A stretch of 43,677 bases of DNA. It comes from a virus. The notes under the pieces are model-generated. The model was given only the letters and a program-made list of their open reading frames with translations, had not been told where the DNA came from and did no database searches. The first letter of the stretch is position 1, and the number at the start of each line of letters is the position of its first letter. The stretch spans positions 1 through 43,677 of IMG/VR virus record IMGVR_UViG_3300049043_000116. One strand, written 5' to 3'. A program made the position numbers and the translations under genes. This document shows positions 1 through 41,749 of the stretch, one piece after another.

Positions 1-337
1 TTTTGGCAGGCCCCTATGATCCAGACCGCCCTCCGTTCCCCGCGTCTCCCGCAGCGTCTTGCGTGCGTGGCAAGCCGGGCACAGCGTCTGCCCGTTGGCC
101 AGGTCATACCTCTCGCCGCCTTGGGCAATCGGCCTGACGTGATCGGCGGTGGTTGGCCTGGTCGATGCGCCCGCAGTCCACACACGCGAAGGCGTCCCGA
201 GTCAGCACAGCTTGCCGCCACTTTCTGTGGGCCTTGTCGCAGTAGCCACGGGCTGCGGCGTTGGGCCGGCCTGTGTCATCTCGACGCGGTGCAGCTCGCA
301 GCCGTGGCGGCCTGTGGGCTGGTATGCGTGTGGGCAT
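1..337 (-). CDS. HNH endonuclease, partial and frameshifted
   Basis: The protein starts MPTRIPAHRPP and carries an HNH nuclease core: CVDCG, then DHVRPIAQGG after a one-base frameshift near position 150, then NGQTLCPACHARKT. The two Cys pairs hold the structural zinc and the DH pair is the expected metal-binding catalytic site. No stop is reached before position 1, so the C-terminus is missing. HNH genes often sit just upstream of phage terminase genes. If the phage is circularly permuted, this gene would lie next to the HNH-terminase block at the other end of the phage segment. Confidence 0.75.
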
Positions 338-341
338 GGCC

Positions 342-1663: not shown

Positions 1664-1820
1664 GCCCGTCTCTCACGCCTTCAATAGCGTCGTTCGCAGT
1701 TCCGCGTAATCCCGGCGTCCAGCGTTTTCGCCGCAGATGGACGCGATTTTGCGATGTGTTATCCAGCGAGGTCGTGATTATCTGGCGTTATACGGAACAG
1801 TAGAAACACTGGTTCTCTTG

Positions 1821-2144
1821 TCAGTCCCCAGCGCCAAGTGACCGCAGAATCCTAGCGGCCTTCAGTAAGTCCACGTTGACGGCCTTGCCGTTCTCGTCGC
1901 GAACCTGAAGCCTCGCGCCGCCATCTTTCTCGGCGATCATTGCCCACTGAAAGATGCCGTCACTGCTCCGGGCCGCGACAACTGCCGAACCATGCTCCAC
2001 CGACAGCATGACGTGCTGGCCGCTCTGGCCGAAGAAGACGTACTTGTTGTTTCCGCTGGCGTCGATGGCGAGCGGAGAGGGCCACGCGGCTGCGAGGCAC
2101 ACTGCGCAGCAGGCTGAAACAAAGCAAGCAAATGCAGTTCGCAT
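1821..2144 (-). CDS. Small secreted protein, probable phage accessory gene
   Basis: A 107-residue protein with a clear N-terminal signal peptide (a Cys- and Ala-rich hydrophobic stretch over residues 4-20, then a likely cleavage near AAAWP). The ATG follows an AGGAG site 8 bases upstream. The mature part is beta-rich and lacks catalytic motifs. It stands alone between non-coding gaps, with its own ribosome site, and a 12-base inverted repeat flanks it (1810-1821 and 2167-2178). This is typical of a lysogenic-conversion gene that acts outside the cytoplasm; that role is inferred. Confidence 0.6.
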   Translation of the reverse strand: MRTAFACFVSACCAVCLAAAWPSPLAIDASGNNKYVFFGQSGQHVMLSVEHGSAVVAARSSDGIFQWAMIAEKDGGARLQVRDENGKAVNVDLLKAARILRSLGAGD

Positions 2145-2173
2145 ATCTAATCTCCTAAAGTGAAAAACAAGAG

Positions 2174-2253
2174 AACCAAGCGATGCAGCGGACCCGCGAT
2201 GCCGCCTGCCGGTATGGTAAGTCAGCGGTCGCGGGCCGCTGATCGCTGGCGTT
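2174..2253. repeat. attC-like folded repeat A
   Basis: The strand folds into one long imperfect hairpin running from AAC at 2174 to GTT at 2251. Its left arm GCGATGCAGCGG pairs with CCGCTGATCGC on the right, except for one bulged G; a second paired block CCCGCGA/TCGCGGG follows further in. Terminal AAC/GTT pairing plus an extrahelical G in the left arm are hallmarks of integron attC sites. The stop codon of the minus-strand gene 2252-2614 overlaps the right end. I cannot show that it recombines. Confidence 0.55.
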
Positions 2254-2614
2254 AGCGAATCCCCAGCAACTTCCGTTCATGCGGCGTCAGTTTGGCAATC
2301 GCCGCTTTCTTGGCTTTGGCGTCCTTTGCCGCCGCCAGTTCCGATTTGATCCTCGCCTTGTCCGCAGCCTTGTGGTCACGCCACCAAATCTGCATCTCTA
2401 GGCTGTAGTCCTTTACGTCAACCGACTGGAGCCGCTCGCACAGTTTCGCCACCATCTTGTCGCCGTCCACCCGCTGGCTGTAGACGCTTGGGTGATAGCC
2501 TCGCCAATGGTGCTGGTCGATTTCCTTGCCATCCAATTCGTCAAGCAGGCAGGCCACCCGACTCAACCGAATCTCCAGCCAGTTGGCCTCCATGTAACTG
2601 CAATCGCATGGCAT
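2252..2614 (-). CDS. Conserved small protein inside an attC-bounded cassette
   Basis: The chosen start (MPCDCSYMEANWLEI) has AGGAGAA 7 bases upstream, which is better than an in-frame ATG nine codons earlier. The protein is 120 residues: an N-terminal Cys pair, a central LDELDGKEIDQHHWRGYH stretch, a WWRDHK motif near residue 80 and a Lys/Ala-rich helical tail. I recall similar short proteins from diverse phages and bacteria, without known function. The gene fills the interval between two attC-like repeats, so it may have arrived as a gene cassette, here in the antisense direction. Confidence 0.6.
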   Translation of the reverse strand: MPCDCSYMEANWLEIRLSRVACLLDELDGKEIDQHHWRGYHPSVYSQRVDGDKMVAKLCERLQSVDVKDYSLEMQIWWRDHKAADKARIKSELAAAKDAKAKKAAIAKLTPHERKLLGIR

Positions 2615-2646
2615 TGTCACGTTCTCCTGTGGCGCATCCAATCGCT

Positions 2647-2687
2647 AACCACGCGATGCAGCGGACGAGCCGCTGATCGCGGGCGTT
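2647..2687. repeat. attC-like folded repeat B
   Basis: A short copy of the same element as at 2174-2253: AAC-cacGCGATGCAGCGG-acgag-CCGCTGATCGC-gggcGTT. The arms pair except for the same bulged G in the left arm. Both copies have the same orientation, and their GTT core triplets lie 434 bases apart with one gene between. That is the size and layout of an integron gene cassette. Confidence 0.5.
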
Positions 2688-2923
2688 CTCGATGTTTTCT
2701 CAATAGCGCACCAGCGGCTCGCCGAGTTCACCAGTCCGCCGCCAGCTGCGCAAGGGTAGTCCTACGTCTCTCATGCGAGAGGGTCAGACCACAGTTCGTT
2801 ATGTTCCGCCTAGAGCGAACTACCGAACTTGTTCCGGTAGTTGCCGGGCACCATTGTACCGGCGTCCACCAGTCCGCGAAACCCTTTTCAGCGCGGCGCG
2901 ACGCTACATATCGGCTGTAACGA
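2688..2923. other. Non-coding gap with a small palindrome
   Basis: I see no convincing gene here on either strand; open frames on the plus strand lack ribosome sites and family features. A hairpin AACTACCG-aacttgttc-CGGTAGTT lies at 2818-2842. The gap sits between the attC-like repeat B and two very small minus-strand genes. Confidence 0.4.
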
Positions 2924-5517: not shown

Positions 5518-5780
5518 TCAGTTCTGCCCGTCGGTCTCGGGCATCCGGGCCGCAGCCGCTCTCGGTTGAACTGCGCATAGAGCAAGCGGGTTTGCTCTTG
5601 GATGGCACCTGAAATGTCCTTCTGCGTCTCGCCAAGCTGCTCGAGGAACTGCGTGTGGGCTTGTACCAGTGGCAGGAGAACGTCTTGCCGCAGCACCCAG
5701 CCGAAGGCGATCGCCACGAGCGTCGGGAAGCCCCACCGCTCAATGATCGAGAACATCGTGCCTTTTATTTCGTCGGTCAT
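5518..5780 (-). CDS. Holin-like small membrane protein
   Basis: It begins MTDEIKGTMFSIIERWGF and has one hydrophobic helix at about residues 15-32 (FPTLVAIAFGWVL). A charged, coiled-coil-like stretch rich in Gln and Glu follows (QLGETQKDISGAIQEQ). This layout fits small phage holin or holin-associated proteins. The ATG overlaps the upstream stop (ATATGA). A probable frameshift near 5530 decides whether it ends at 5518 or runs to about 5475. The neighbouring membrane protein, lipoprotein and peptidase support a lysis module, but no experiment is implied. Confidence 0.5.
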
Positions 5781-6119
5781 ATCGCCTGCTCCCGTTGCCA
5801 GCCTAATAGCAATGCCTTGTTACTGGCAGAATTGAGCCACCACTGAAACAACGCTTTGATGATTTCTGACAGCAGGGCCGAGCAAGATCAGCGTGAGCAC
5901 GAAGCCCATCTTGTAGTTGGCCCGCTCCTGGCGTTCGACGTTCTTCTGGATCTGCTCAAGAACGCGGTCGCGGCCCTCGTCGGTTGCGCCGACCATGATG
6001 CTGCCGGGGAACTGCCGGGCACACCGCCTGGTCAGCCTGGCAACGAGCTTGCGGCCGGCCAGGAACTTCATGGCGGGCATGTGGCTCCACACGTAGGAGT
6101 CAAGGTCTTCAACGCTCAT
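5777..6119 (-). CDS. Small membrane protein of the lysis-like block
   Basis: The start MSVEDLDSYVWSHMP is preceded by AGGAAAG. Residues 5-60 are basic and helical (AGRKLVARLTRRCARQ), a charged EQIQKNVERQERANYK helix follows, then a membrane span (MGFVLTLILLGPA). A frameshift near 5876 hides the true C-terminus, which in the next frame reads LLSEIIKALFQWWLN and ends QREQAI. That end overlaps the holin-like gene start. The basic N-domain with a C-terminal membrane anchor suggests a membrane-associated lysis or exclusion factor; the role is inferred. Confidence 0.5.
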
Positions 6120-6364
6120 GGTTTCTTTCCTGTGCCTTTGCACACTGGGCACGTCGTGACGATTCGGCCGTCACCGAGCTTGCCCGTGCCGTCGCAGTTG
6201 TCGCAGCGGTCGCTGGCCGGGGCCGGGGCCATCTGCTGCCCGAGCTGCACCGCCATGCGGGCCGTCTCGCACGCCAGATCGGCGACAATATCGGGATGCT
6301 CAAGGGCCGTGGCATTCACGCAGCCAGCAAGCAGGGCCAGGCCCAGGACGTAGGAGCGTCTCAC
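6116..6364 (-). CDS. Lipoprotein with DnaJ-type zinc-finger repeats
   Basis: It starts at GTG after a perfect AGGAGG and overlaps the stop of the cysteine peptidase gene (GTGA). The first 15 residues form a lipoprotein signal (VLGLALLAGC), with Cys15 as the lipidation site. The C-terminus carries two CxxCxGxG units (CDNCDGTG and CPVCKGTG) as in the DnaJ zinc domain. The 82-residue protein is intact. An envelope-attached zinc protein next to a peptidase and holin could be a spanin-like or chaperone-like lysis partner, which is a guess from position. Confidence 0.6.
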   Translation of the reverse strand: MRRSYVLGLALLAGCVNATALEHPDIVADLACETARMAVQLGQQMAPAPASDRCDNCDGTGKLGDGRIVTTCPVCKGTGKKP

Positions 6365-7271
6365 AGCACGCCTCCTGTCCAGTCGGGCAGCATGCGGGGC
6401 GGGAAGCCCTGGTAGCCGCTCAATGCAAATGAATCCTCGCCCGAGAGCATCGACGTGCACGTGGCGGCATCCACCCAGCCGGCTGACTTCTGGAACTGCG
6501 GCGGAAGGTTTGGATCGACGCTGCCCGAGTAGCAGTCGCCCCAGCTGTTGACGCAGAGCAGGGCCGGGCGTGGCTTCCAACGGACGCCGGCAAACATCAT
6601 GCAGTGTGCCCACTGGCCCATCGGAGTGAGGTAGCCATCTCGCAGCGTCATTGAGAACCCACGCATGGAGCACACGGCAACCGGGTAGCCGTTCTGAATC
6701 GCTCTGGCGGCATCCTCAAACGTCTTTGCAAGCCGCGACCGACGACACCTTCCGCTGTGCGGCGAACGGTTCAAGCACGTCGGGCACGCCGTCGCGGCCC
6801 CATTCGGTCTCGCGTCGGCCGCTGTTGTCGGTGAACTTCTGCCCGGCGTAGTCGATGCCGTAGTGCAGCGTGCCGAACCTAGTCACGGCCTTGGCAGCAG
6901 CGCCGCCGTATGAGCCATCGCCGCCAAGGTTGCGCTGGCCGCGAACCTCGACGCGAGAGAATGCGTAGACGCTGGCCTCCAGCGTGCGGCCGCCATAGCT
7001 CTCGGCCTCGCCTCGCAGCATGATGTCGCAGGCCGCCAGGATGTCGCACGACAAGGCCCAGCCCCAGCCGCAGCACGAGCCGATCTCTCGCCTTGCGCTT
7101 CCACGCTGGATCGCACGCGAGCAGATACTTCCCGAGGAACACGTCGCGGCTCTCGTCGAGCACGAGATCCGGCCCGGCTTGCGCCAGCGTCGGCCTGGCG
7201 AGCGTCGAGAGAAACGCATCGGTGCCGGCACGATCCGGCTGGTAGCCCATCAAGGGCAGGAAGTCGGCCAT
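6361..7271 (-). CDS. Papain-family cysteine peptidase, frameshifted
   Basis: The start MADFLPLMGYQPD follows GGGAGGGG and overlaps the upstream stop. Once frameshifts near 7095 and 6725 are bridged the product is about 300 residues and has the C1 papain triad in order: EIGSCCGWGWA (catalytic Cys around residue 66), GQWAHCMMFAG (His near 220) and NSWG (Asn near 245). Glu replaces the usual oxyanion-hole Gln before IGSC. It has no signal peptide. In a lysis-like block it could cleave cell-wall or envelope peptides, or mature virion proteins; substrate unknown. Confidence 0.7.
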
Positions 7272-7755
7272 CAGCCCCTCCCAATGCCAGCCCACGCAAT
7301 TGCTCGGCACACCTCGGCATACGCTTTCCGCAGCTCGGGCGTCACTGGCTTCACCTCGAGGCCCACAACGCCGCCCAGGGCCTGCTCGACGCCTTCACGC
7401 AGGCCGGGGAAGTCGCCCGGCTGACGGCCAGCCATGCGTCGCCATGCGATGTCGAGCGACAGGACCGTAAAGCCCCGCAGGCTGCGTGTGTCTGTGAAGA
7501 CAGCCTCTTTGCCCTCAGGTGCCGACACGACCACAGCGGCCTTTTCCCAAACGCTGGCCCAGATCATCCGCTCGGCCGGGCTCTGCGGCTCGCCAGGGCC
7601 GCCGCCACGCCTGCAACCTTCGCCTGCATCTCCACGCTCGGGGCCTCCACGCTCACGCTGACAACCGGAAACACTCGGCCACCGTAAACGGGGCAGCAAC
7701 CCGATCGAACGCCCCGCCGGCGGACGAGCAGCAGGGCAACAATCGCCAGACGCAT
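7271..7755 (-). CDS. Secreted or membrane-anchored protein paired with the peptidase
   Basis: The N-terminus MRLAIVALLLVRRRG is a short hydrophobic anchor or signal. A beta segment (VFPVVSVSVEAPSVEMQAKVAG) follows, and after a frameshift near 7590 a helical domain (RMIWASVWEKAAVVV, VFTDTRSLRGFTVLSLDIAWRR, VTPELRKAYAEVCRAIAW). I recall this protein type beside a papain-like peptidase in other planctomycete phage regions, so the pair may work together. The ATG overlaps the upstream TGA, and its own stop overlaps the peptidase start. No catalytic motif is visible. Confidence 0.5.
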
Positions 7756-8199
7756 CAGGAGCCCGGCTTGGCTCGTTGGCGAGCTCGACGAGCCGGCCCG
7801 CCGCGTCTTTGACGCTCGGCCAGTAAGGAGCCGCCCCAAGAACCACCGCCAGAGCGATGCACGCGCCACGAAAGAGCAGGTCTGCATCCACTTCGCGGCC
7901 TCGGGCTTGGAGCAGCAGGAACCGCACGAGGGCCTCGCCTTCCTTCGTCTTCAGGATGTCGGCGAGGAGCCGCACGAGCTTGTCGTCGAGCTGGGCGTCG
8001 GTTTTGCTTGCGATCCATTCGGCTGCGTCGCTGACAACCAGCGATTTCTTGTACGGGTCGATCTCCTGCACGAACCGCTGGCCATATCCCGATCAGCGGT
8101 GCCGCAAGCCTGCAGCAAGGCGAGCTGCTGCCAGATGTTGAGGCTAGGCCCAAACTTTGCGTACTCGTCGGCAGCGCCTTGGTAATTCGGCGTCGTCAT
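7755..8199 (-). CDS. Phage protein with C-terminal membrane segment, frameshifted
   Basis: The start MTTPNYQGAADEYAKFG follows AGGAGG. The first 110 residues are helical and charged (IWQQLALLQACGTADRD, then EIDPYKKSLVVSDAAEWIASK and DKLVRLLADILKTKEGEALV). One hydrophobic span follows (GACIALAVVLGAAPYW). Frameshifts lie near 8090 and near 7770, where the true end (PGS then TGA) overlaps the next start. The first gene of the lysis-like block, it may be a membrane-tethered scaffold or regulator. Function unknown. Confidence 0.5.
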
Positions 8200-8211
8200 G
8201 CGGCGGTCCTC

Positions 8212-8475
8212 CTACGTGGAGTCTGCCTCGCCTTCCGCCTCCTCTTGCAGTTTCGAATCGAATCTCCACGATGTCGTCGAGTGCCCACTGGTACACGAAA
8301 TCAAACACGTCCCGGCATTCCTGCCGGCGTCTTCGGTGTCCAGGCGAAACGGCCAACGGACGTGTTCAAAATCTTTGATCGTCCCGTCGCCTTCGCACAG
8401 GTAGATCCAGACGTACTTCCGAGAAAAGTCGATGACGACCTTGCCGACAATCGGATCGTTCAGCACGTCACTCAT
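8212..8475 (-). CDS. Small acidic phage protein, function unknown, frameshifted
   Basis: The start MSDVLNDPIVGKVVIDFSR is chosen because CGAGG lies just upstream; another ATG two codons earlier is less well placed. Readable parts are RKYVWIYLCEGDGTIKDF, PFRLDTEDAG, then VFDFVYQWALDDIVEIRF in another frame and an acidic tail EEAEGEADST. At least two frameshifts lie between 8240 and 8330. The beta-alpha pattern is that of a small globular domain. I do not recognise the family. Confidence 0.45.
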   Translation of the reverse strand: MSDVLNDPIVGKVVIDFSRKYVWIYLCEGDGTIKDFEHVRWPFRLDTEDAGRNAGTCLISCTSGHSTTSWRFDSKLQEEAEGEADST

Positions 8476-8827
8476 CGGCATCCTCGAGCATGTGCTCGCA
8501 CCCGTCTGGCACGGAGAAAAACCGCAGCGTCACGTTCTGCGTTTTGATGACGGCCCGCTCCTCTCGCGTGCGGCGTCCCACCTGGCTCGGCAATCTCCTT
8601 GCACGCCTGGCGTATCTCTGCGCGGAGTCGGATCGCGGTACTCGGAGCGTTTCGGCTTGAAGCGGAATCGGCGGTCGTGCCGGGGCGGCAACTCGGCCAC
8701 GGACTTGAGACGCAATCAGCTGATCCTTCGTGATCGTCCAATGGGTGCAGATGGCAGCCATCGAGGAATGGCTATCCCACTGGATTCGCAGCGTGGCGAA
8801 ATCAATCGTGGCTGTCGTGCCTGCCAT
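8468..8827 (-). CDS. GcrA-like helix-turn-helix DNA-binding protein, frameshifted
   Basis: The start MAGTTATIDFATLRIQWDS follows GGAG. The segment LRIQWDSHSSMAAICTHWTITKDQLI matches the Trp-containing helix-turn-helix pattern of GcrA-type and phage HTH proteins. A basic part (RHDRRFRFKPKRSEYRDP) and a helical part (IRLRAEIRQACKEIAE) follow in other frames, ending SVPDGCEHMLEDADE. Several frameshifts lie between 8540 and 8720. Likely a transcription regulator of the late or lysis genes downstream; the target is unknown. Confidence 0.5.
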   Translation of the reverse strand: MAGTTATIDFATLRIQWDSHSSMAAICTHWTITKDQLIASQVRGRVAAPARPPIPLQAETLRVPRSDSAQRYARRARRLPSQVGRRTREERAVIKTQNVTLRFFSVPDGCEHMLEDADE

Positions 8828-9669
8828 CGCTTGGCTCCATCCAACGCATGATCGTTCGCATGCCGGGGCACAGGTACAGGCTCTGGCCGGTCGCCTCTGC
8901 GATGCTCGCATGGAAAGGCACGTGCTCGCAGTCGGTCGCCCCGTCGTACACGCCAGCCAGGTAGACGTCTGTGCGGTAGATGACGAAGCCACCAAAGGCG
9001 GAGCACACTCGAACGGGCGGCGATCCGACCTGGCGGAAGCCATTGGTGTTTCCATCCGCCTTGGCCGTTCGTGTAATCGTCCCATGTCGAATTCAGCCGC
9101 AGCGCCAGGCGTTCGTACTGTGCCCATCCACGGCCTATGGCCGGCTTGTGGTCGGCGTCCATTCCCATCTGTGGCGGTCTCGAGTAGCGACACGCTCGCC
9201 ATGCCGTAGGCACCCTGCAGTTCGACAAGCCACCCGAGGCCGTTGAGCACGCCTTCATGGTGCCAGCCGCCCAGGCGTCCCAGTCAATTGCCACCACGTA
9301 GTCGCATTTGGCAGCGTTCTCTCGCACCCACCGCTGGGCAGGCCGTGCGGTACTCGGCCAGGGCGATCGTGCGAGGCCCGGCAAATCTGTCCGAGAACTG
9401 CTGCCGGCCGAGCCGCTGGCTGGTGAACGTCGCCTGCCGGTAATCGCGGCAGAAGTCCGCGAGCACCTGTCGGTGCTGTCCTGTTGTCGTTCGTCTCGAT
9501 GTGCAGCCGCCACGATCGGCAGCCTTCGGCAAGCCGCAGGAGCCTGCCGAGGTTATGAGCCAGCGGCAGGTCGCAGTTTCTGGCAAGCCCCACGAAGCAC
9601 ACGTCTGCGTTTGCTAGCCGGGCGCACCTCGGCCACCTTCGCCGCATACGCTTCCGCGAAAAGCGGCAT
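8802..9669 (-). CDS. Glycosyltransferase-like protein, multiply frameshifted
   Basis: Readable pieces in order: MPLFAEAYAAKVAEVR, NADVCFVGLARNCDLPLAHN, RSWRLHIETNDN, GPRTIALAEYRTAC, CDYVVAIDWDAWGGW, LNSTWDDYTNGQGGWKHQW, VCSAFGGFVIYRTDVYLAG and PFHASIAEATGQSLYLCPGMR. The DWD motif after CDYVVAI is the DxD nucleotide-sugar metal site of GT-A enzymes, and the opening resembles capsule mannosyltransferase-type (CAP59-like) proteins. It adds a sugar to an unknown acceptor, probably in the cytoplasm. It sits in tandem with another glycosyltransferase and a methyltransferase. Confidence 0.55.
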
Positions 9670-9685
9670 CGGCAGCAGCAGATGC

Positions 9686-10299
9686 TCAGGAAGACGTAGA
9701 TAGTGCTCTGACGGTGGCGAGTCGGTCGGCATATTGCGTCACGTGTCGGAAGCGTGGCGACTCGACGCGCCGCCGGTCGGCCGGTGATCGTTCCACGTCG
9801 CACCATGAACGTGGTGAGCCGATGCAGTGTGGTCGGTGTGTCAAGCGTGGAGCGGACGCCTTCAACGCGGTAGCCCATCTGCTCGAGCAGGGCAGCCTGC
9901 TCCACCACGGGTGATGACATGCCGCTCGGAGTTCCACACGTCCACGAGCACAGGCAGCATCGGCTGCGTGAGCGCCCACACGCCGCAGTTCAGAAACGGC
10001 CGCACTCGGTCTACGTGCTCGACGATCGCCTGCCAGTTGCTTCCTCGTTCGTCGAAGATGCTGGCCGAGCCGTCCACGATCACCACGTCGGCGTCGATCC
10101 ACGCAACGCGGTCGTGCGATTGCAGGGCCTGCATGATGGCCTTCACCTTCATCCACGAGGCAGGCCGCTCGCCTGCGAGGTTTGCGCACGCACAGGCCGC
10201 ACCGTGCCGGGCCGCGTATGCCACGATTCGTGGCAACGTGTGCGCTGCGATCTGAGCGAACTCAAGGCCTGTCCAGCCTGTCAACACAAGGTCAGCCAT
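9686..10299 (-). CDS. GT34-like (MNN10-type) glycosyltransferase, frameshifted
   Basis: The start MADLVLTGWTGLEFAQI leads into the conserved GT34 pattern: KVKAIMQALQSHDRVAWIDADVVIVD (DAD metal site), NCGVWALTQPMLPVLVDVWN, then WWEQAALLEQMGYRVEG in another frame and FRHVTQYADRL at the end. Frameshifts lie near 10010 and 9900-9780. The family moves galactose or mannose from a nucleotide sugar. Its start overlaps the methyltransferase stop, and its stop lies just before the next glycosyltransferase, so the three look like one operon for a modified glycan. Confidence 0.65.
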
Positions 10300-10817
10300 G
10301 GCCGACGAACATTGCCCGCCCCCGCGTGTCCCACGTCTCTGACCATGTCGAGAACCGCGAAAGCACAGCCTCGCGGCTGGCGTCGCTCGGTTGGTCCCAG
10401 TCGTGGATAGCGAGCCTGTCGGCAATCCCGGCAGCCGTCGAGGTACTCGGGCAGTACGGCGTCGCCGTGTGCCGCGTCGTGAAAAACGAAGTCCCACTGC
10501 TCGAGGTGCAGTTGGCAATCACGCAGGAACCGGCCTGCGTCGCCCTGTATCGGCTGGATGTTATCCACCGCCGAGCAGCTGCCAGTAGGCGAGCCGGTCG
10601 TCCTCGCAGACGGTGTCGCAGAGATCGACGCTGACCACCGTGGACTCTGGGGCAGCGATTGCCAAGGCGGCAGTTGAGATCCCGGCATGCGAGCCGAGCT
10701 CAAGGATGTCCGCCACTCCTTCCCGGCCACGATGCTGCACAGTTGGGCAATGTGTTCTTTCGCCGTGGTCATCTGGTGCGAATCGTCAACGCTCGCAAGG
10801 TACGTTTCCCACGTCAT
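10292..10817 (-). CDS. SAM-dependent methyltransferase, class I, frameshifted
   Basis: The start MTWETYLASVDDSHQM overlaps the rusA stop (ATGA). Motif I reads LELGSHAGISTAALAIA in a shifted frame, and motif II is VVSVDLCD. The DGDRF-like segment VDNIQPIQGDAGRFL and the acidic motif WDFVFHDAAHGDAV follow, then LAIHDWDQPS and a tail ending AMFVGHG. The order fits Methyltransf_24 enzymes, which often act on sugars. Frameshifts lie near 10690 and 10410. Coupling to two glycosyltransferases suggests methylation of the same glycan. Confidence 0.65.
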
Positions 10818-11218
10818 GTGATTCGCACCGTCGTGCGGGCCTCCGTGCCGTATGACTTCTCCACGACACACCGCGGCCGATTTGGCTGTCGTCGATCCAG
10901 GCCACACCGTTCAGCCATCCTCCAGGCCCTTGAGCACATTTGAGCAGTCGGGCCTTGGCAGCTTCGGAGCGTCTGGCTTCAGGCCGCTCTTGCGGTAGTG
11001 GCTCTTCGGGCGGGCGAACACAAGATCGACGATAAGCGTGATTGGTGCGGCGTCTGTCGGCGTGGCCCCAGCCTCAATCGCAGCTGCCGCAATCGCAGAC
11101 CGATAGGCGTGGATCGGGTGGGAGCTAGGCGTGTAGGCGTGCCGTGCTTGCCTCGCACCGTGATGCGTGCACGCGGCTGCGGGACGGGATCGCCTGGCAC
11201 CTCGAATGTCAGCGCCAT
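10814..11218 (-). CDS. rusA: RusA-like Holliday junction resolvase, frameshifted
   Basis: The start MALTFEVPGDPVPQPRARIT follows GAGGG. After a frameshift near 11130 the protein continues YTPSSHPIHAYRSAIAAAA, then VDLVFARPKSHYRKSG, RPDCSNVLKGLEDGLNGV and AWIDDSQIGR. The PD-N-K-D spacing and the WIDDSQI box supply the catalytic acidic residues of RusA enzymes. It ends VEKSYGTEARTTVRIT, where a second shift near 10890 is bridged. It cuts four-way DNA junctions during phage recombination or packaging and lies in the same module as RecT and the sliding clamp. Confidence 0.8.
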
Positions 11219-11367
11219 CAGCCGGCCCTCGCAGCGAGGTACAAGCCGACGTTTGCAAACGCATACCCTAGGTAGGCGAGGCCCAACCCGACCTTGCCAT
11301 GCAGGGCCAAGTCTGCCGCCACCACGAGGTAGATGCCGCCGGTCAGTGCTATGAGCCACGGTGCCAT
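11218..11367 (-). CDS. Small two-span membrane protein
   Basis: A 49-residue frame starting MAPWLIALTGGIYLVVAADL, with a second hydrophobic stretch VGLGLAYLGYAFANVGLYL and a short basic end. It is intact, and its TGA overlaps the rusA ATG. Two short membrane helices with a Lys between them suit an inner-membrane peptide. I recall very similar peptides beside rusA-type genes in phages from memory only. Function unknown. Confidence 0.5.
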   Translation of the reverse strand: MAPWLIALTGGIYLVVAADLALHGKVGLGLAYLGYAFANVGLYLAARAG

Positions 11368-11388
11368 GCACGCAGCATGGCGAACGTG

Positions 11389-11713
11389 TCAAACGATCAG
11401 CGCGGCTGGCAAATGCCACGCCGCCACTTGGAGACCTTGGAGAACGTGTCTTCCGGTGGCTCTGCACGCCGCATGGCGATAGTGCCGCTCTCGGCACTCT
11501 CTGGCACGCTCGGCGATTTCCTCTGGCGTCGGGTTGACCTCTTTCGGCGACGGCCGCTGCCGCTCGCGGCGGCGGCAGCCCGTAGGTCGCCACCGCGCGA
11601 GCCAGGCCGGCGTGCGAAAGCCCGAGCCGCTGGGCGATCTCCGCCCGTCTGATGCTGTTGTCAGCCCACAGCTTGAACAGCAGCGGGACGTCTACAGGCT
11701 TTGCATAACCCAT
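11389..11713 (-). CDS. Helix-turn-helix DNA-binding protein, frameshifted
   Basis: The start MGYAKPVDVPLLFKLWADN overlaps the sliding clamp stop and follows a GGGGGA site. Residues 14-45 form a helix-turn-helix (LWADNSIRRAEIAQRLGLSHAGLARAV), as in GcrA or homeodomain-like regulators. After a frameshift near 11560 a basic part follows (PSPKEVNPTPEEIAERAREC), ending AAWHLPAALIV. Probably an early-gene regulator. Confidence 0.55.
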
Positions 11714-12826
11714 CAGGCGTCCCCCGCCAACGGCATGATGATTCCCTTCACGTCGCCGCATCGCAGCTGCACGGCGTCGCCGGGGCCGCCAGCCTCGATC
11801 TCCACAAACGGCTCGTCGTCCGCGTCGAGGCCGGCCACGAAGTCGAGGACGAATCGGGGGTCGAGCTTGACGATGGTGGCGTAGCCGCACGTCGGCAGGT
11901 CGCACGTCACGGTCGCCTCGCCGGCCTCGCTCGACTTACTCGTCAGCTTGAGCACGCTGCCGAACGTGTAATCCACCGCCCTTGCTCTGCTCGCTCGTGC
12001 AGACTGCAGCCGCGCGGGTCGCAGCCTCCAGAGCACGCACAGGCAAGACGCTCGCCTGAATGTCGCGAGACGGGAACACGTCACGCCACCTCGGGAACCG
12101 GCCATCGACGAGCCGGGCCGTGATCGTTGCCGCCGTCCGTGGTACACACAACTTCCGACTTCGTCGCCTCGAGCTGCACGCTGCCTTCGGTGCCGGTCGC
12201 CAGCGTGGCCATGAGCCGGATCGCACGGGCCGGGATCAGCGTCGTGCTGTCATCAACCGCCTGGTCGGTCTCGACCTCCACGCACGACAGCCGCCGGCCG
12301 TCAGTGGCCACGAGCGTGGCGTTGCCATCCGCCACCTCGACGAGCACGGCCCCGATGGCGAACCGGCTGGACTCCTGATCCGTGGCGTAGGCCACGGCCT
12401 TGATCGCACGCACGAACTGGTCAGCAGGCATGCGGCAGACGGGCTTCGCCTCGGTCGGCTCCCAACTCGGAAACTCCACCGCAGACTCAGTGGGAATTTC
12501 CCACTTCCGCCACCGGCCTTGATCGTGCAGCGCGCGTCGCATCTGGCACGACGTGCACCTCGGCGTCACGCGCACGCTGCGGAGGATCTGAAGCAGCCGG
12601 GCCGCCGGCACAAGGAACGGCTCGCAGTGCTGGCCGATCTCACGGTCGATCCGCACCTCGAGGTCGGTGCCAGAGATCAGCCCGTCACCGATCCGCACGT
12701 TCTGCAGGATCGGCTTTGGCGTGTGCCCCGGCACTGCCCTCATCACCGCCGCCAGGGCGTCGAGGAGTTCGCCAGCCGTAGATGAAATCCGCCAATCTTC
12801 GCCTTCGTCTTCGTTGCTGTCGCCAT
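11713..12826 (-). CDS. dnaN: DNA polymerase III sliding clamp (beta subunit) homologue
   Basis: The start MATATKTKAKIGGF follows AAAGGA. Bridging several frameshifts gives about 370 residues, the usual clamp length. Domain I shows PKPILQNVRIGDGLISGTDLEV and FLVPAARLLQIL. Domain II shows CRMPADQFVRAIKAVAYATDQ, RFAIGAVLVEV and LVATDGRRLSCVEVE. Domain III shows LVDGRFPRWRDVFP and the final VKGIIMPLAGDA, matching the C-terminal MPMRL-type strand of bacterial clamps. The ring tethers polymerase to DNA. A phage-borne clamp suggests the phage redirects host polymerase. Frameshifts lie near 12790, 12520, 12110 and 11975. Confidence 0.75.
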
Positions 12827-12935
12827 GTCGAGAGTCCTTTCTCGTGAGTGAAATACCTACCATGATCCCGAGGCCGAACGTCAGCATCAGGATGATTTCG
12901 CCAAGTGACACGAGCACCAGATCACGCACGCTCAT
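12784..12935 (-). CDS. Small membrane protein overlapping the clamp gene
   Basis: It starts MSVRDLVLVSLGEIILML after a perfect GGAGG site 6 bases upstream and has one strong membrane helix (about residues 8-28, ending GLGIMVGISL), then a charged tail (RKDSRHGDSNEDEGEDW). Its frame runs into the clamp gene because of a frameshift near 12790, so the true stop cannot be placed. The ATG overlaps the stop of the upstream small gene. Function unknown. Confidence 0.45.
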
Positions 12936-13126
12936 GGATCGCCTCCAGCTTTTCGACGCCGCTGCGACAGGCGGATGCACCGCACCATCAGCTGCTCGAT
13001 CGTGTCGGCCGACCGCTCGTGAAACTTCCTTGCGTCATCGTCGAGGTCGTCTTTCCACATCTGCATACGCAGCATCTGCATCAGCATGCGAGGGGCCGGG
13101 AGTGGGTGCGGGTTGTCAGTCGGCAT
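12932..13126 (-). CDS. Small Met-rich helical protein
   Basis: The chosen start MPTDNPHPLPAPRMLMQML follows GGAGG with ideal spacing; an upstream in-frame ATG would overlap the LexA-like gene too far. The 64-residue protein has a Met-rich helix, an acidic patch KDDLDDDARKF and a basic end. Its stop overlaps the next start. I do not recognise it; length and position suit an early-region regulator or host-takeover protein. Confidence 0.5.
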   Translation of the reverse strand: MPTDNPHPLPAPRMLMQMLRMQMWKDDLDDDARKFHERSADTIEQLMVRCIRLSQRRRKAGGDP

Positions 13127-17598: not shown

Positions 17599-17767
17599 GC
17601 CCCGAATGTACCGGCCTCGGCAACCGGGGCAAGCGGCCGGTCGGCCAAACTTGCCCAGACCGCCCGGCCCTCCGTAGCCTTCAGCGTCCGAATTCAAATG
17701 GAGGATAGGGTTCAAAAGTTCACGTACACGAACAGACGTACAGTATGCTAGCCAAATGGAGACAACA
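17599..17767. promoter_or_regulatory. Divergent control region between excisionase-like gene and integrase
   Basis: This 169-base gap must hold the promoters of both divergent genes, unless the excisionase-like gene starts further upstream within it. It contains the near-palindromic stretch CGTACACGAACAGACGTAC around 17732. A phage attachment site near the integrase would be expected here or just past 18656, but I cannot see a repeated core in this window. Confidence 0.35.
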
Positions 17768-18655
17768 ATGACGATACGAAAACTGCTTGAAACAGAGTAC
17801 GCCCCGCTGCGGGCTTTGCGGCCTACGGCCATGTACCAGTTCAACCTTACGATCGACCGATTCGGCGAGCACCTGGGCCACATCGCCACGCTCGACGATC
17901 TCAAGCCGCTGCCCGTGCAGGCGTTTCTCGCCCACCGTCGCACCCAAGTGTCCGCCGCCACGGCCAGGAAGGACCGGACTCATTTGGTCGCCTTGTGGGG
18001 GTACGCCGCCAAACGCCGGCTGGTGGAGGAGTTTCCCACGATCCCGCCCCTGAAGGCCCCACAGAGGCTCCCACGGGCCTACAAGATCGACGAGGTGTCC
18101 AAGCTGATCCGTATGGCACTTTGCCACCCAGGCACCGTCTGCGGGCTTCCTGCGGGCATCTACTACGGCTCAATGCTGCGGCTGGCGTTTGAGACCGCAG
18201 AGCGCATTGGGGCCATCCGCCTGCTCCGGTGGCGCGACGTGGATCTCGACGAGCGGGCCGTGGTCTACATGGCCGAAAACCGGAAGGGCGCGACGCGAGA
18301 CATTCGCCGGGCCATATCGCCCGAGCTGGCCGGCTGGTTGGCCCAGATCCGCCAGCGCGATTGCGATCTGGTGTTCCCGTGGGATCGTCACCCGACGAGC
18401 CTTTGGTACGAACTCAAGAAATTGGCGTCGATCGCGGGCGTGACGGCCCGAGGGTTCCACGGCCTGCGAAAGTCCGCCGCCTCGTACGTCACGGCTGCCG
18501 GTGGAGACGCCACCCGGCTGCTCGATCACAGTAACCCGACGATCACCAGGGACCACTACGTTGACGAGTCGATTGCCAGGCCGAAGCAGACTGCCCTCGA
18601 CTTCCTGCCGCCGCTCAACCTGGAGGACGATCCGCCGGAATCGCCGGCCGCGTGA
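17768..18655 (+). CDS. int: Tyrosine-family phage integrase
   Basis: The second ATG (MTIRKLLETEYAPLRALR) is chosen because GGAG lies six bases before it. The gene is intact with 295 residues. An N-terminal SAM-like core-binding domain covers residues 5-95. The catalytic domain shows Arg146 (FETAERIGAI), Lys173 (ENRKGATR), His231-x-x-Arg234 (GFHGLRKSA), His254 (LLDHSN, where LGH is usual) and Tyr264 (RDHYVDES). It catalyses site-specific integration and excision of the phage. It is the only clear plus-strand gene here and ends one base from the convergent gene's stop. Confidence 0.85.
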   Translation: MTIRKLLETEYAPLRALRPTAMYQFNLTIDRFGEHLGHIATLDDLKPLPVQAFLAHRRTQVSAATARKDRTHLVALWGYAAKRRLVEEFPTIPPLKAPQRLPRAYKIDEVSKLIRMALCHPGTVCGLPAGIYYGSMLRLAFETAERIGAIRLLRWRDVDLDERAVVYMAENRKGATRDIRRAISPELAGWLAQIRQRDCDLVFPWDRHPTSLWYELKKLASIAGVTARGFHGLRKSAASYVTAAGGDATRLLDHSNPTITRDHYVDESIARPKQTALDFLPPLNLEDDPPESPAA

Positions 18656-32977: not shown

Positions 32978-33642
32978 GGCGAAGCCTCAAAGCAGCGGCG
33001 GCTGCCGCATCACGGGCGAGAGAACGCACGGCACGCTTGATGTCAGCCGGCGTCTTGTCGTCGTGCTCGATCTCTGCGGCCTGCGATGCCAGCCACGCCT
33101 CGTAGGAACGCTGAGCAACGACGGCCGACGTGGCACTGCCGTAGGCCGGCACATTGACTGGCCCAACTTCGTAGAGGCCAGACGCCTCCACAATCTCACG
33201 AATCGCCTTGCCACCATCATCAGTCGTGAACCGCTCGCCCTTCTGCGACACCGTGAAGGCAAAGCTGCTGCCACGCAGGTTCCCGAGAACGCACCAGGGC
33301 AAGAACGTCACGGCCAGCCGATGTGTCTGGCGGCTCGACAACGTACGAAATACCACGGTCATCGGCGATGATCTCAAGCGTGCCGGCAGACTCTCGGCCC
33401 AGCAGCATGTCGGGATTGTGGTTGTAGTAGCTTAAGATCTCGCCTTTGCCACGCTGGCGGCTCAGCACCTTGTCAAAGGCCCCTGGCAGGATTCGCTCAC
33501 GAAAGCCGCCCAGATCAAGCGAGAGCCGGTTATACGGCACCGCCAGGCCACGCACGGCTTCTCGCCCGCTGGCCCTCGTCTCAATGACGAGCTCGCATTC
33601 CGGGGCCTCGTCAACCGTGAGGCATCGTCGCTCAAGTTCCAT
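32970..33642 (-). CDS. HK97-type prohead protease, frameshifted
   Basis: It starts MELERRCLTVDEAPECEL after AGGAGG. The family signature is clear: AVPYNRLSLDLGGFRERILPG, FDKVLSRQRG, LSYYNHNPDMLLGRESAGTL (catalytic His), DRGISYVVEPPD, then in another frame NLRGSSFAFTVSQKGE (catalytic Ser) and EVGPVNVPAYGSATS. About 223 residues, typical of peptidase family U35. It removes the scaffold part of the capsid during maturation. The frameshift lies near 33290. Confidence 0.8.
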
Positions 33643-34922
33643 CGGTGGTGTCCTCCTGCTCGGCCTGGTCTTCGGCGTCGTCCTCTGGGCTGTCTTCAAC
33701 TTCTATCACGGGCGGCGCTGCGGCCGGTGCCTGCTGTTGCTGGCCAGCCTTGTCGAGCGTCGTCATGTTCAGCTGGATGAAGTGCCGGTCGCCTTCTGGC
33801 CCGATAGGGTTCAGGTTCTCCAGCTCGCGGATCTCGTTAATGCTCATCCAGCCGTTCTGCAGGGCCGACACGTAGTAGGCCGACCGGCTCGCGTGATCGC
33901 CGCGAAGCAGGCCGCTCACGCTGTGCTCGGCAAAGTACGTCTCGTCGTCCACGATGAGATCGCGGGCGATCGCCGACTCCCACCGCTTCAGGTGCGGCAG
34001 CAGGCAGTGTTGCACGAACTCGGTGCCCTGCACCTCGATGTTGCTGTACGTGCTGCGTGTCAGGTCTTGGATCATGTGAGGCGGCACGCGGAACGCCCGG
34101 CAAATCTCAATCACCTGATACTGCCGCGTCTCAAGGAACTGGGCCGCCTCGTTTGAGCCGCTGAGTTCGTGGGCCTTCACGCCGTTGGGAAGTACCGCCG
34201 TGCGGAAGGCACGGTCGGCACCTCGGTGCATCCGCTCCCACTGCTCGCGAAGCCGCTCGGCCGCCTCGGCCGGGATCGGGTTGTCACTCTCAAGCACAAT
34301 GCCAGGCCGGGCACCGTTGCCGAAGTAGGTGCTGCCGTGGGCCTCAAGGGCCTGGGCCAGGCCGATCGCGTTCTGGAAAATCTTGTACGTCGGGATGGCA
34401 CGCACGCCGTCTTCGGTTGTGAACCGCAGGGCGAAAATTTGGTCCTGCGAATAGACGGTCTGCCGGCCGTTTGGCTCGCGATAGACATACCGCAGACGCC
34501 CGTCCTCCAGGCGTTCAACCTCCATGCGGCTGGAATGCAACGGCCACAGCTCGGAGATCGCACCTCGAGCACCTGGCCGGATCTCGGCGTAGCTGGCACC
34601 GTAGTGCAGATACATGCCGGTCATCCAATCGCGGAACTCCTGCGGCCGTCTGCCACGGATTCGGCTGGGTGTGCAGGAGCCGATACACGGGATGCGTCGG
34701 GGCCTTCGCCTTGCCACCGCTCGCCAGCCGCTCGTAGACGTGCAGCGGGAGGGACGATACCGCATCCGAGATGACGCGGATGCAGGCCGTGTAGGCCGAG
34801 CACGCCATCGAGTTGTCGGCCGTGACGCGAACGCCTGACGGTGTGCGACTTGACGAAACCTCTGGCCAGTCGATGCCGCGAAGATCAAACATCTTGTAGT
34901 CGGCCAGGGCGTTTTCGCTCAT
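33632..34922 (-). CDS. HK97-family phage portal protein, frameshifted
   Basis: It starts MSENALADYKMFDLRGID, overlapping the terminase stop (ATGA). Pieces: ACIRVISDAVSSLPLHVYER, PVYRLLHTQPNPWQTA, YLHYGASYAEIRPGARG, LHSSRMEVERLEDG, DGVRAIPTYKIFQNAIG, EICRAFRVPPHMIQDLTRS, TYSNIEVQGTEFVQHCLLPH and ENLNPIGPEGD with a Gln/Ala/Pro-rich end. The order is that of phage_portal (lambda/HK97 type), about 430 residues. One frameshift lies near 34640. It forms the DNA entry channel. Confidence 0.85.
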
Positions 34923-36538
34923 AGCGTGATGATGTCCCAGGATTGCTCGGCAGCCTTACTCACGCTGTTTACCTCCCACCCTCCAAGGGCGAAGATCAGC
35001 GCCACAATTCCGTCGATGCGACAAGTGCTTTTCTTTTTGACTGGCCGAATGTCCTCAAATGCTCCCGTCTCTACGGTCACGCCAGCCGCCATCCACGACA
35101 GCACTGGGTTTCCTGCGTGGCGTATTCGTTGCTGGAGCACGAGGCTTTCCAGTAACTTTGTGGGGCTGCTCATTGAGCGGAAGCCCTGCCCAAATGATTC
35201 CACTTTGAGCCCTGCTCCTTGCAGTTCAACGCCGAGCTGTACGGCACCGCTCATGTCCATGAGCACCCGTTCAACCTTGTGGTTCTGTGCGTACTTGAGC
35301 ACGCACTCGCGGATGACTCCGTGGTCGATCACGTTGCCGCTTGTGGCCGTGATATAGCCAGAATCGACCCAATGCTGGAACGGCTGGCGGTCTGTCCGCT
35401 CTCGCTCCATGATCAGATCGCGCGGGCTGAACAGCATCGCGTCAACGTCGAAAGTCCCATCTTCCGACGGAAACAACGCCACGACGGCCGACAAGTCCGT
35501 GGACTTGCTCATGTCCATCCCGAGAATGCACGGCCTGCCTGCCAGCGGAACAGTTGGCGGCAACGCGCACGCTGCCCACTTGTCTGGGTCAAGGAAACGA
35601 TTGCTTGTCTCTGTCCAGATTCCTAATGAATAACGCAGCCAGCCGTTGAGCTTTGTTGCCTTGTTCCTGGCCTCCATTGCGTCGGCCGCGAATGACTCCT
35701 CTGTCATGGTGACGCCCATGCCTGCAGTTACACCTGCGCCAGACTTCCGGCGAGAAATAATCGTCCACGTCTTTTTGTGCCGCCCATATGCGACCGTAAA
35801 AACGCGGGTCATAAGCAGGATCGGCAATCACCTGCTCGGCATATTCGTGCTGCTCCCAGCAAATTGACTGCCTATCGCTGCCTGCCGTTGTGATTGTGCA
35901 TATGAGCGGCTGCCGCCTGGAGCGGCCAGAGTACCGCAGGGCCTCCCACAGCTTTCTGTCTGGCTGGGCGTGCAGTTCATCAAAGAACACAAACGAATAC
36001 GAAGGGCCTTCTGCTGATCCTGCATCGCGTGAGATGACACGCAGGCTGCTGTTATTGCTGCGGTTCACAATCGTCTTGCGGCTGTCGATCACCTCAAGCA
36101 GGCCACGCAGCTCTGGCGAGCCAAGGATCATCTTTGCGGTTTCGTCGTAGATGATTCCGGCCTGTTGCGATCCTTTGCTGCAATGCAACCGAGTTCACCA
36201 ACGCCCTCCATCACCAGATGCCAAATCGCAAGGCACGATAGAAGCGTGCTTTTGGCGTTTTTCTTTGGAACCTCAAAGTATGCGATCCTGTAGCGGCGGT
36301 TTTTGTCTTTGTCCTTCCACCCGTACAGCGGCCGAATGACTTCGTCCTTGTGCCAGTCAAGCAGCTTGATCGGGTCGCCAGCCTTGGCCGTTGCGCCGTC
36401 TTTTGTATGGACGCAGACGCCCTCCAGGAACTCGATCACCAGCTCTGGGTCTGTTGGGTCGTAAGTAAACCCATCGACCAGCTCACGCCTTCTGGCGACG
36501 GGCAAGGAACTTGGAGAGAGTGCTTTCTTCCTTGGCAT
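34919..36538 (-). CDS. terL: Terminase large subunit, frameshifted
   Basis: It starts MPRKKALSPSSLPVARRR after GGAG. About 540 residues. The ATPase domain shows Walker A FEVPKKNAKSTLLS, Walker B YSFVFFDELHAQ and the coupling motif LICTITTAGSDRQS. The nuclease domain shows ILGMDMSKSTDLSA, RVLMDMSGAVQLG and a late acidic residue in RIDGIVALIFALGG. It packs DNA into the prohead and cuts concatemers. Frameshifts lie near 36170 and 35715. Gene order small-large-portal is canonical. Confidence 0.85.
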
Positions 36539-36977: not shown

Positions 36978-37986
36978 GCTTCCTCCTCAAGGCACAGGCG
37001 AAGCTGGCCTTCTGCCGTGTCGCCCTTTGCCATGTTGCACCCACGGCAAAGGCACTGCGAATTTTCAAATACGTTTCCAGGGCTGCCCTCTACGGACAAC
37101 GGCACAATGTGATCGTGTTCCGCGTTCCGTAGGTCGGGAGTAAATGTATGCGGATGCAAGACGTATTCTTTATTACACACAATGCGGCACTTCTGGCATC
37201 GCAAGTTGTCTCGGCGCAGCACTGCTTCGCGTGTGCATGCTGGGTCGAAAGTGACTCCAAAGACCTTGCATCGTTTTCGTAATGATCGCGCAAGGGCGTG
37301 CTCTGACGCGGACCTTCTTGCCGCCCTGCTACGCCTAATCCGTGGCCTATCACTTCCCCAGCGATGATCTCGATAGCACTCTGGACAACAATATTTTCCT
37401 TTGTTCTTCCACAAGTTGTTTGTGCGATGTTTCATGCGGAACTCGCGACCGCATGCTGGATTTTGACAAATAAGCTTTGCCGGATACTGAACGGCCTGCC
37501 TGCACGCAGGAGAACAATACTTAGTTCCACGTTTGCGAGTTTTTGAGCAATTCGGATTTTCGCAAGGCTCAGGAGATGCCGCATGATGCTTGCGCGCCGT
37601 TCCATCTTTGCCCATTCTTTACGGCACTCCGGCGAGCACGCGTGTTGCTTCTCGCGTCCATTAGTGAATGTGGCGGAACATATCTTGCAGACGTGCGAAT
37701 ACCTTGGCCTTCCATTGACGCCACGTGATCGTTCATGGCACGGCTTGCATCGCTTTGCAAGAGGACCGCGACTGCCCGCACGGGCGATATCGCAGAAGCA
37801 ATCCACGCACTTGGAATGTCGTGGTCCTTTATTCCTCCGCGCGATCTTTTCTGGATTTTGTGCCGCCCATTCCCTAGCCTTTCTGCAAGCGTGCTTTTTC
37901 TTGCAGCCGCTGCAGCGCTTTGTTGGCGGACCCCTGCGAGAGGTTTTCTGAATGGACGTTCCGCAATCGACGCATGCACTGGACAT
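36960..37986 (-). CDS. HNH endonuclease with many zinc knuckles, frameshifted
   Basis: It starts MSSACVDCGTSIQKTSRRG. The N-terminal 190 residues repeat Cys-pair zinc knuckles: CVDCG, CSGCKKKHAC, CVDCFC, CKPCHE, CKICSATF and CSPECRKEWA, then after a frameshift near 37560 CENPNCSKT, CSPACRQ, CQNPACGREF and CCPECYRD. An HNH nuclease core follows: RRDNLRCQKCRI, AEHDHIVPLSVEGSPGN and CLCRGCNMAKGD. It lies directly upstream of the terminase genes, where HNH proteins of some phages help terminase cut DNA. The precise stop near 36960 is unsure. Confidence 0.7.
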
Positions 37987-38061
37987 GCGTTCAATCTGCG
38001 GATGCCGTCAAGCGACGGCAGACCTACCCCCTCACCGTTAGGTGCAGGCACAGTTTCCCGA

Positions 38062-38111
38062 GAGCAATACGTAACTGAACCAGTGTTAAACCATTTGGGT
38101 TACGTATTGCT
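38062..38111. other. Nanopore adapter junction 1 (end of phage sequence)
   Basis: GCAATACGTAACTGAAC starts at 38064 and its reverse complement GTTACGTATTGC closes near 38110, with GTGTTAAACC-type leader sequence between. This is the published Oxford Nanopore ligation adapter read through from one molecule into the next. The phage sequence stops here and an unrelated AT-rich piece begins. Confidence 0.92.
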
Positions 38112-38449
38112 AGTTAATGATTTAAATAAAAAATATAATTCTGTTAAATTTATATATAGGAAATAAAATGTTATACTATATTATCGACGCCATTATTAAT
38201 TATTGCTGTTTTGGAAAGCCTAAAAAGAAATTAAACTCATACATAGAATAAAAGAAGATGTTCTAGAACTTAGTAGAAGCAGAACTAGATCACCTTAGAA
38301 AACATTTAGGTAATGGATGCTGTTAGATATATCTAAAAGCTAAATATGTTCTCATTTCATCAATTTGCTGTTTAATCTTACATTGCTTTTCTCTTTCCTC
38401 TATTCTTTTAGAAATTGATAATACAGGATCAAGTCTAGTAACATTACCT
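38112..38449. other. Foreign insert A: AT-rich fragment
   Basis: A 338-base piece far more AT-rich than the phage. On the minus strand 38323-38449 encodes a charged helical protein end (RIEEREKQCKIKQQIDEMR, stop at 38323). The plus half has no clear gene. Origin unknown; low-GC bacterium, organelle or eukaryote. It is not part of the phage. Confidence 0.7.
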
Positions 38450-38528
38450 GCAATACGTAACTGAACGAAGTAGATGACATAAGTTCTCGCCCCGCCGCCG
38501 CCGCCGCCGCCGTGAGTTACGTATTGCT
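38450..38528. other. Nanopore adapter junction 2 with GCC repeat
   Basis: The full bottom adapter (38450-38471) and the end of the top adapter (38517-38528) flank a 45-base scrap with seven GCC/CCG units (38490-38512), a typical basecalling artefact or tiny fragment. No biological feature should be read from it. Confidence 0.9.
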
Positions 38529-38995
38529 GGGTCTCCGGAATCGGGGTTTTGACCACCAAAATCCCGAATTTTGGCCAAAAATCACGAAAAATCACGAAAA
38601 ATGGCACCAGCTGGTGGGTTTTTTGGGGTTTTTGGACCCCCCCCCAAAATCGGGAATTTCGACCCCTCGGACCCCAAAAATACGGCCTACAGTGACTTCC
38701 CGGGATCCCTCATAATAGGTAGAGGCCATTTTTCGGGTTTTTGGCACTTTGAGCTGGTGGGCCCCTAGTCCAAAATTTTTTCATTTTGGGGGGCGTATTC
38801 CACATTGCAAAAAATCGACCAAACTCACTTAATCCAAGGGGGCGACTGGTCTGTACGTGTTTTTTTTTCCAATTTTTTCTGGCAGCTAAGGGGTCAAAAA
38901 AGGACCGAAAAGTTCACGACGACGTGTTTATATAGAGGCAAAATCGGGATTTTTGGGGTTTTTGGCCAAAAATCGGGTTTTTGGGGGGTCTCCCA
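38529..38995. other. Foreign insert B: homopolymer-rich non-coding fragment
   Basis: A 467-base piece full of repeated GGGGTTTTTGG, CCCAAAA and AAAATCGGG runs on both strands. No credible coding frame is present. The texture suggests eukaryotic intergenic or satellite-like DNA. It differs sharply from its neighbours and is bounded by adapters on both sides. Confidence 0.65.
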
Positions 38996-39045
38996 GCAAT
39001 ACGTAACTGAACGAAGTACATCCACAAAACATCTGACGTATTGCT
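38996..39045. other. Nanopore adapter junction 3
   Basis: The adapter core at 38996-39017 is followed by a short leader remnant and by GACGTATTGCT at 39035-39045, the end of the opposite adapter. It marks another molecule boundary. Confidence 0.92.
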
Positions 39046-39270
39046 CTGAGACTTCCAAAGAAGAGCCTTCCAAAGAAGATGAAAAGTTTTTTCAAAACGA
39101 ACAACACCCTCTGATATGCAGGAATGACAAAACGCCCATCCCCCCAACATCGAGAATGCCAAATTGTTCGATTGCGTGAACGATAAGGGGGTGCATAATG
39201 CAACGCCAATTGTGATAACGCGTATCCCCTGATGTTCCCCAGTCTGCTGATATTTTCTGTTAGGCGTGTA
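39046..39270. other. Foreign insert C: short unassigned fragment
   Basis: A 225-base piece with a tandem CTTCCAAAGAAG pair near its start and no clear gene. It ends at a degraded adapter. Origin unknown. Confidence 0.6.
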
Positions 39271-41746: not shown

Positions 41747-41749
41747 GCG

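Follow-up and report, generated by a model that had tools for sequence, protein, structure and literature searches.

Can a phage carry gene cassettes of the integron type, and which enzyme would move them if the phage has no integron integrase (IntI)? This question is raised by two folded repeats in the IMG/VR virus record IMGVR_UViG_3300049043_000116, the complete 43.7 kb (43,677 nucleotides) of which are referred to here as the window. The record contains portal, terminase and capsid genes and thus represents a phage, as the initial annotation had assumed. That annotation described a single cassette framed by two attC-like sites. The sites proved to be of the attC type, but the cassette is not single, as an attI-like site is followed by two cassettes (Table 1). 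We consider it likely that the region 1770-2691 is a phage-borne integron platform without an integrase, made up of an attI-like site and two cassettes and mobilised in trans by the IntI of a host.

Layout of the array

The upstream repeat reaches from AAC at 2174-2176 to GTT at 2251-2253 (80 nt) and the downstream repeat from AAC at 2647-2649 to GTT at 2685-2687 (41 nt). Both have the same orientation, with 434 bases from GTT to GTT, and both follow the scheme AAC-N8-G-CAGCGG...CCGCTG-N9-GTT, an imperfect hairpin with an unpaired G in the left arm (L'') 8 nt past AAC. Positions and geometry are just as originally described, and a structural scan of both strands gave the two repeats as the best plus-strand sites in their neighbourhood. 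Nothing in the window matched Rfam at gathering thresholds and no tRNA genes were found in it. With two attC sites and no IntI the array is a CALIN, and the attI-like site exceeds that definition.

Table 1. Features of the cassette array and relevant phage genes in the window.
Feature	Position	Strand	Evidence
attI-like primary site	1770-1814	+	GTTAT repeats, then GGAACAGTAGAAACACTGGTT (1794-1814)
Cassette 1	1813-2251	+	TT of attI-like site to G of attC1
Cassette 1 gene, 107 aa	1821-2144	-	ORF; antisense to attC orientation
attC1, long form, 80 nt AAC to GTT	2170-2257	+	R1 57.9 bits; R2 38.1 bits, E 3e-7
Cassette 2, 434 bp	2252-2685	+	R' GTTAGCGA at 2251 pairs with attC2 R''
Cassette 2 gene, 120 aa	2252-2614	-	phrog_11759, E 9e-25
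attC2, short form, 41 nt AAC to GTT	2643-2691	+	R1 69.2 bits; R2 35.4 bits, E 1.3e-6
Phage tyrosine recombinase, PHROG 1 integrase, not IntI	17756-18655	+	PF00589, E 1.4e-10; no TIGR02249 match
Phage portal and terminase genes, terminase split over frames	33632-36538	-	PF04860, E 7e-84; PF20441, E 4e-31; PHROG terminase matches

The two ends of each cassette pair with each other. In cassette 1, the 10 nt of R' GTTCTCTTGT (1812-1821), once reverse-complemented, are identical to R'' ACAAGAGAAC (2167-2176), and in cassette 2 the match between R' and the R'' of attC2 is 8 nt long. The gene of cassette 1 ends with a TGA close to the cassette boundary and found no match in Pfam or PHROG; judged by eye, the N-terminus of its product resembles a signal peptide. 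The gene of cassette 2 has its TAA stop within the R' box of attC1, and its ribosome binding site (RBS) AGGAG and ATG lie just inside attC2. That this small gene is real, as proposed initially, is borne out by its membership in phrog_11759, a family to which no function is assigned in PHROG, and by an 85%-identical homologue on viral contig L024. Its product shares 52% identity with a protein of Synechococcus phage S-CRM01, for the corresponding region of which an attC model search (R1, see below) listed no site, and no homologue was present in Cyanobiaceae genomes at E<=1e-4.

In the element GGAACAGTAGAAACACTGGTT, an L-box-like GGAAC is followed by a spacer and the R-box GTT, and the predicted cut would fall between G1812 and T1813. 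This motif has a single match within the window. About 18 viral contigs have it conserved immediately ahead of their first cassette, and apart from one spurious exception an attC never occurs upstream of it. A host attI, situated about 170 nt past IntI in Cyanobiaceae, reads GGAACC-N12-GTT in one class and GGAACC-N11-GTT in another; the N12 spacing is that of the phage site, and outside the common GGAACC-spacer-GTT the phage and host sequences are unlike. Conservation, pairing of R' with the first attC and host-like spacing make 1770-1814 a candidate attI, for which we use the term attI-like. We also considered that the region could be the tail of a conserved gene; this was ruled out, as the frame is not conserved. 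The gene to its left (1262-1663) belongs to a family with an RGLLARxG-like C-terminus, relatives of which occur near or inside attC cassettes on other viral contigs and in Cyanobium sp. FGCU52 (L141, 13826-14196).

Identification of the repeats as attC-type sites

In class 1 attC sites, e.g. attC-aadA7, 8 nt separate AAC and the extra base of L'', which is the geometry seen here, and nearly all host attC sites listed likewise have an extra base 8 nt after AAC. Canonical class 1 sites carry the complementary base as extra base; among host attC sites its identity varies. Two covariance models were built. R1 derives from 30 phage-type sites, that is, from other phage sites plus attC2, and is thus not fully independent for the window. 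R2 was constructed exclusively from 25 Cyanobiaceae attC sites residing beside IntI, with 12 of the 15 pairs of the stem covarying. The initial annotation had suggested a covariance model search, and the host-only model R2, run on both strands of the 43.7 kb, returned exactly attC1 (E 3e-7) and attC2 (E 1.3e-6) and nothing else. R2 also matches many sites on further viral contigs. On the basis of geometry, end pairing, mobility pattern (see below) and the host-only model, the repeats are confirmed as genuine attC-type sites at the level of sequence.

We rejected a reading of the attC sites on the minus strand, by which the genes would run in the canonical direction. The extra base resides in the left arm of the plus strand, shared cassettes start at the left GTT and the single conserved neighbouring attC, where present, is the right-hand one.

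A family of viral arrays with exchanged cassettes

The same hairpin was found in 107 viral-contig stretches. These were retrieved with an exact attC core pattern, a selection that partly accounts for the uniformity of the core and of its extra G. According to R1, arrays comprise up to about a dozen sites, and the sites within one contig share their strand bar one palindromic double match. A simple structural finder applied to the 107 viral loci and the window placed 225 sites on the array strand versus 5 on the opposite one. R' and R'' match over at least 6 nt in 103 of 115 distinct cassettes, compared with 34.5 expected for random pairing. Phage-type cassettes have a median length of 362 bp. 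Among cultured phages, a search for the same attC yielded chance-level blastn matches only.

Homologous cassettes sit in otherwise unrelated contexts, and 19 pairs of shared cassettes were detected. The identity starts exactly at GTT although the arms of the preceding attC differ, as is the case for L018/L066 and for L024 and the window. In the window, L024 and L019 cassette 2 has a different attC to its left each time, and the breaks are at GTT; being comparative, such breakpoints have a resolution of a base or two. They fit a recombination point that separates the G of R' from its TT. The attC belonging to the shared cassette itself also differs in several of the 19 pairs. Contigs L029, L074 and L100 have near-identical phage backbones (94-97%) and differ in cassette content. 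Breakpoints and swapped cassettes together are, as far as comparison of contigs can tell, the pattern of site-specific cassette movement.

The repeats might instead be dispersed palindromes, terminators or the like, that have been spread by homologous recombination and do not serve as recombination sites. The stem is indeed GC-rich and strongly conserved, and homologous exchange within the arms could shuffle some neighbours. Such exchange is at odds with shared-cassette homology that ends exactly at GTT despite unlike arms (L018/L066, L024/window), with R' and R'' boxes that pair inside one and the same cassette and with the single strand used by all sites of a contig. Nor do terminators feature one extra base at a constant distance, and we regard this alternative as the least probable of all those considered.

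It is also very improbable that the array is bacterial DNA and no part of the phage, whether left from a host integron at the edge of a prophage contig or joined to it by mis-assembly. Such an origin would agree with the position of the array close to the contig start and with the far contig end (about 37.6-43.7 kb), which does appear foreign. However, the flanks on both sides of the array (46-751 and 5575-13000) match phage contigs L107, L041, L004 and others, and the arrays of L029, L074 and L100 are embedded in their common backbones. Furthermore, a strict site pattern had no match in 84,980 prokaryote genomes, each representing a species, versus 107 viral stretches, the two patterns being slightly different.

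As for the far end itself, the GC content of window positions 37600-43677 drops to about 41% and is followed by a tandem array of 78% GC (period 251) and by TACGACGA-type repeats. In L041, the match to window position 37 kb closely precedes the match to window positions 55-339. On these grounds, the segment 37600-43677 looks chimeric or foreign. The terminase gene (34919-36538) occupies two frames in the window versus one ORF of 554 aa in L041; their DNA is 83% identical here, 3 kb of alignment containing 10 gap openings, and the window may hold frameshift errors here and elsewhere.

Inverted genes, attC-encoded starts and cargo

In 90 of 103 phage-type cassettes the longest ORF runs against the direction of attC, and the stop codon is usually found in or beside the R' box. 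At the other end, RBS and ATG lie within attC in 33 of 53 cassettes with a long attC, such that the reading frame crosses the attC arm and leaders such as MSDETTPQDSAAMSPASVGS are predicted to be attC-encoded; in 33 of 50 cassettes with a short attC they lie just past it. Part of many long attC sites is thus, by prediction, translated, since start codon and RBS lie within them.

The gene direction argues against a Pc promoter that drives cassettes away from attI. Among the longest genes of the phages, 382 reside on the strand of the cassette genes versus 193 on the other, and transcription by a phage operon towards attI would be the simplest reason for the inversion. The inverted cassette genes would then be transcribed via this operon and not from an integron promoter. 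This would be the reason why each cassette brings its own RBS and start codon, beside or inside attC, and its own stop in or next to the R' box. HNH proteins are part of the cargo, as are Mom (E 1e-14) and Dam (E 1e-32), the latter two being candidates for counter-defence.

Cyanobacterial integrons and the probable host

The strict pattern mentioned above differs slightly from the one used for viral contigs. A looser pattern gave 26 matches in prokaryote genomes, with one clear family member, Cyanobium sp. FGCU52 (L126). A further match, L131, is by appearance an attC of similar shape, and the remaining ones were judged from their flanks to be due to chance. The FGCU52 contig encodes an integron integrase (TIGR02249, E 3e-137), downstream of which an attI and one host cassette are followed by three cassettes of the phage type and two of the host type, the latter presumably MazF-like as named by eye from sequence. 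The MazF-like toxin cassette is present in two near-identical tandem copies at the end of the array (L141, 14200-15720). Viral contigs L018 and L066 have cassettes that, from GTT on, are 93% identical to a separate FGCU52 cassette. The initial annotation was prepared to give up the idea if the repeats had no link to an integron integrase; such a link exists in FGCU52, even though the phages themselves lack IntI.

An IntI over the family cut-off was detected in 44 of 201 Cyanobiaceae genomes. Their attC sites follow the order AAC-N8-extra base-stem, and one type has the core CAGCGGAC/CCGCTGATC in common with the phage sites. The cassettes mostly span about 600-2000 bp, and the longest ORF runs along attC in 23 of the 29 that were scored, the exceptions including phage-type cassettes. 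In the loci read (L160-L179), intI faces attI and the array, an orientation also found in Treponema.

The host of the phage is probably a freshwater picocyanobacterium. The cassettes in common with Cyanobium and the cassette 2 homologue in Synechococcus phage S-CRM01 count for such a host, the nearest relatives of a phosphoesterase-like protein occur in Synechococcus phages, and tetranucleotide similarity, a soft, small-sample measure, is 0.46 to picocyanobacteria versus 0.29 to Planctomycetota. The host is not proven, because a terminase relative at E<=1e-10 was absent from the 201 Cyanobiaceae genomes while distant ones (about 24-41% identity) appeared in 11 of 294 Planctomycetota genomes. 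Photosystem genes, looked for as a host marker, were absent from 48 virus records.

The initial annotation had pointed at planctomycetes. This holds insofar as attC sites weakly similar to those of the phages occur in 14 of 294 Planctomycetota genomes (<=36.8 bits), but the best match is the Cyanobiaceae genome with IntI. A planctomycete origin was discarded, as that similarity is weaker than the near-identical sites and common cassettes in Cyanobium. One attC type, AACAACAGCATGCAGCGGACG..CCGCTGATGCTGxGCGTT, is near-identical between Planctomycetota and Cyanobiaceae genomes (L194, 1501-1560; L163; L164), a resemblance that suggests cassette traffic between the phyla.

Which recombinase moves the cassettes?

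IntI, defined by TIGR02249 over the cut-off, is absent from all 48 virus records, the window's included. Integrases of phages share the chemistry of integron integrases, and the main rival to a host IntI is the phage's own tyrosine recombinase (17756-18655 in the window, and its counterparts elsewhere), in which case the likeness to attC would be due to common ancestry or convergence and a host IntI would not be required. A PF00589 match is present in 32 of the 48 records, 26 of them over the cut-off, and some of the 16 records without a match are fragments. None of these enzymes reaches the IntI family cut-off, however; they are diverse, not detected in every record and located some 12-17 kb from the array where this was compared. 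In addition, the sites of the window fit a model of IntI-linked attC, and such cassettes follow IntI in Cyanobium. Movement by the phage's own recombinase is therefore unlikely in our judgement.

Since IntI was absent from these records and the other recombinases, where compared, lie away from the array, we infer a host IntI acting in trans; the evidence for cassette movement as such is comparative throughout. A resident host IntI would fold the bottom strand of attC and would insert or exchange cassettes in trans at the attI or attC of the phage.

IMG/VR does contain contigs that encode a relative of IntI; 46 were found (L210-L255), and phage-type attC sites were absent from the stretches of them examined. 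Most of their IntI relatives share 50-59% identity with the IntI of Cyanobium FGCU52, and some of the contigs have canonical attC. These contigs could represent genuine integrons of phages, or else integron contigs wrongly classed as viral.

Relation to known systems and significance

CALINs and attC sites without intI have been published for phages (Qi et al., 2023, PMC9892861), the 17 CALINs of that study being located in single phages. In the same study, IntI1 inserted five of six tested attC sites, originating from virulent phages, into attI1, and DNA methyltransferases were among the CALIN cassettes. Our arrays resemble these in bearing attC cassettes without intI in phage genomes. Unlike them, they form a family spread over more than 100 contigs, have a conserved attI-like site and inverted genes, place start codons in attC and have cassettes in common with a cyanobacterial genome. 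The sedentary chromosomal integrons of Cyanobiaceae share attC geometry, one core type, R'/R'' pairing and, in one attI class, the GGAACC-N12-GTT spacing with the phage arrays and differ from them by the presence of IntI, by genes mostly running along attC and by longer cassettes. In Treponema-type integrons, intI is transcribed towards attI and the cassette genes run with intI (PMC3607928). The arrangement of intI and array is that of the Cyanobiaceae integrons seen here, whereas phage-type cassette genes run against the direction of the array.

Near-identical cryoconite phages are described as differing in small flexible gene islands (hypervariable islands), five genes of which are annotated as 'integron gene cassette' (PMC7468147). 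The likeness to our phages lies in small, dissimilar islands within near-identical genomes; the portion of that text that was searched mentions neither attC nor site-specific recombination. In the literature searched, which included few subscription papers or preprints, no paper dealt with inverted cassettes, a translated attC or an attI platform conserved among phages.

Integrons have their established place as devices with which bacteria capture genes, and prior accounts of attC sites in phages are scattered reports. We lean, by a little, towards the view that a lineage of phages possesses a special type of integron, an integrase-less attI platform that borrows the IntI of the host, with cassette genes directed towards attI, with attC supplying RBS, start codon and N-terminal leader peptide, and with cassettes exchanged with cyanobacterial integrons. 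If true, a conserved and widespread phage platform with an attI of its own and inverted cassettes that provide for their own translation would place phages among the regular users of integrons, would help to account for the swapping of small phage gene islands and would open a direct cassette route between phages and bacteria. The phages would gain a swappable gene set that includes the Mom and Dam counter-defence candidates. The use of host IntI in trans by phages and the role of attC as protein-coding sequence become testable questions, and integrons appear to be a gene-swapping system common to phages and their hosts.
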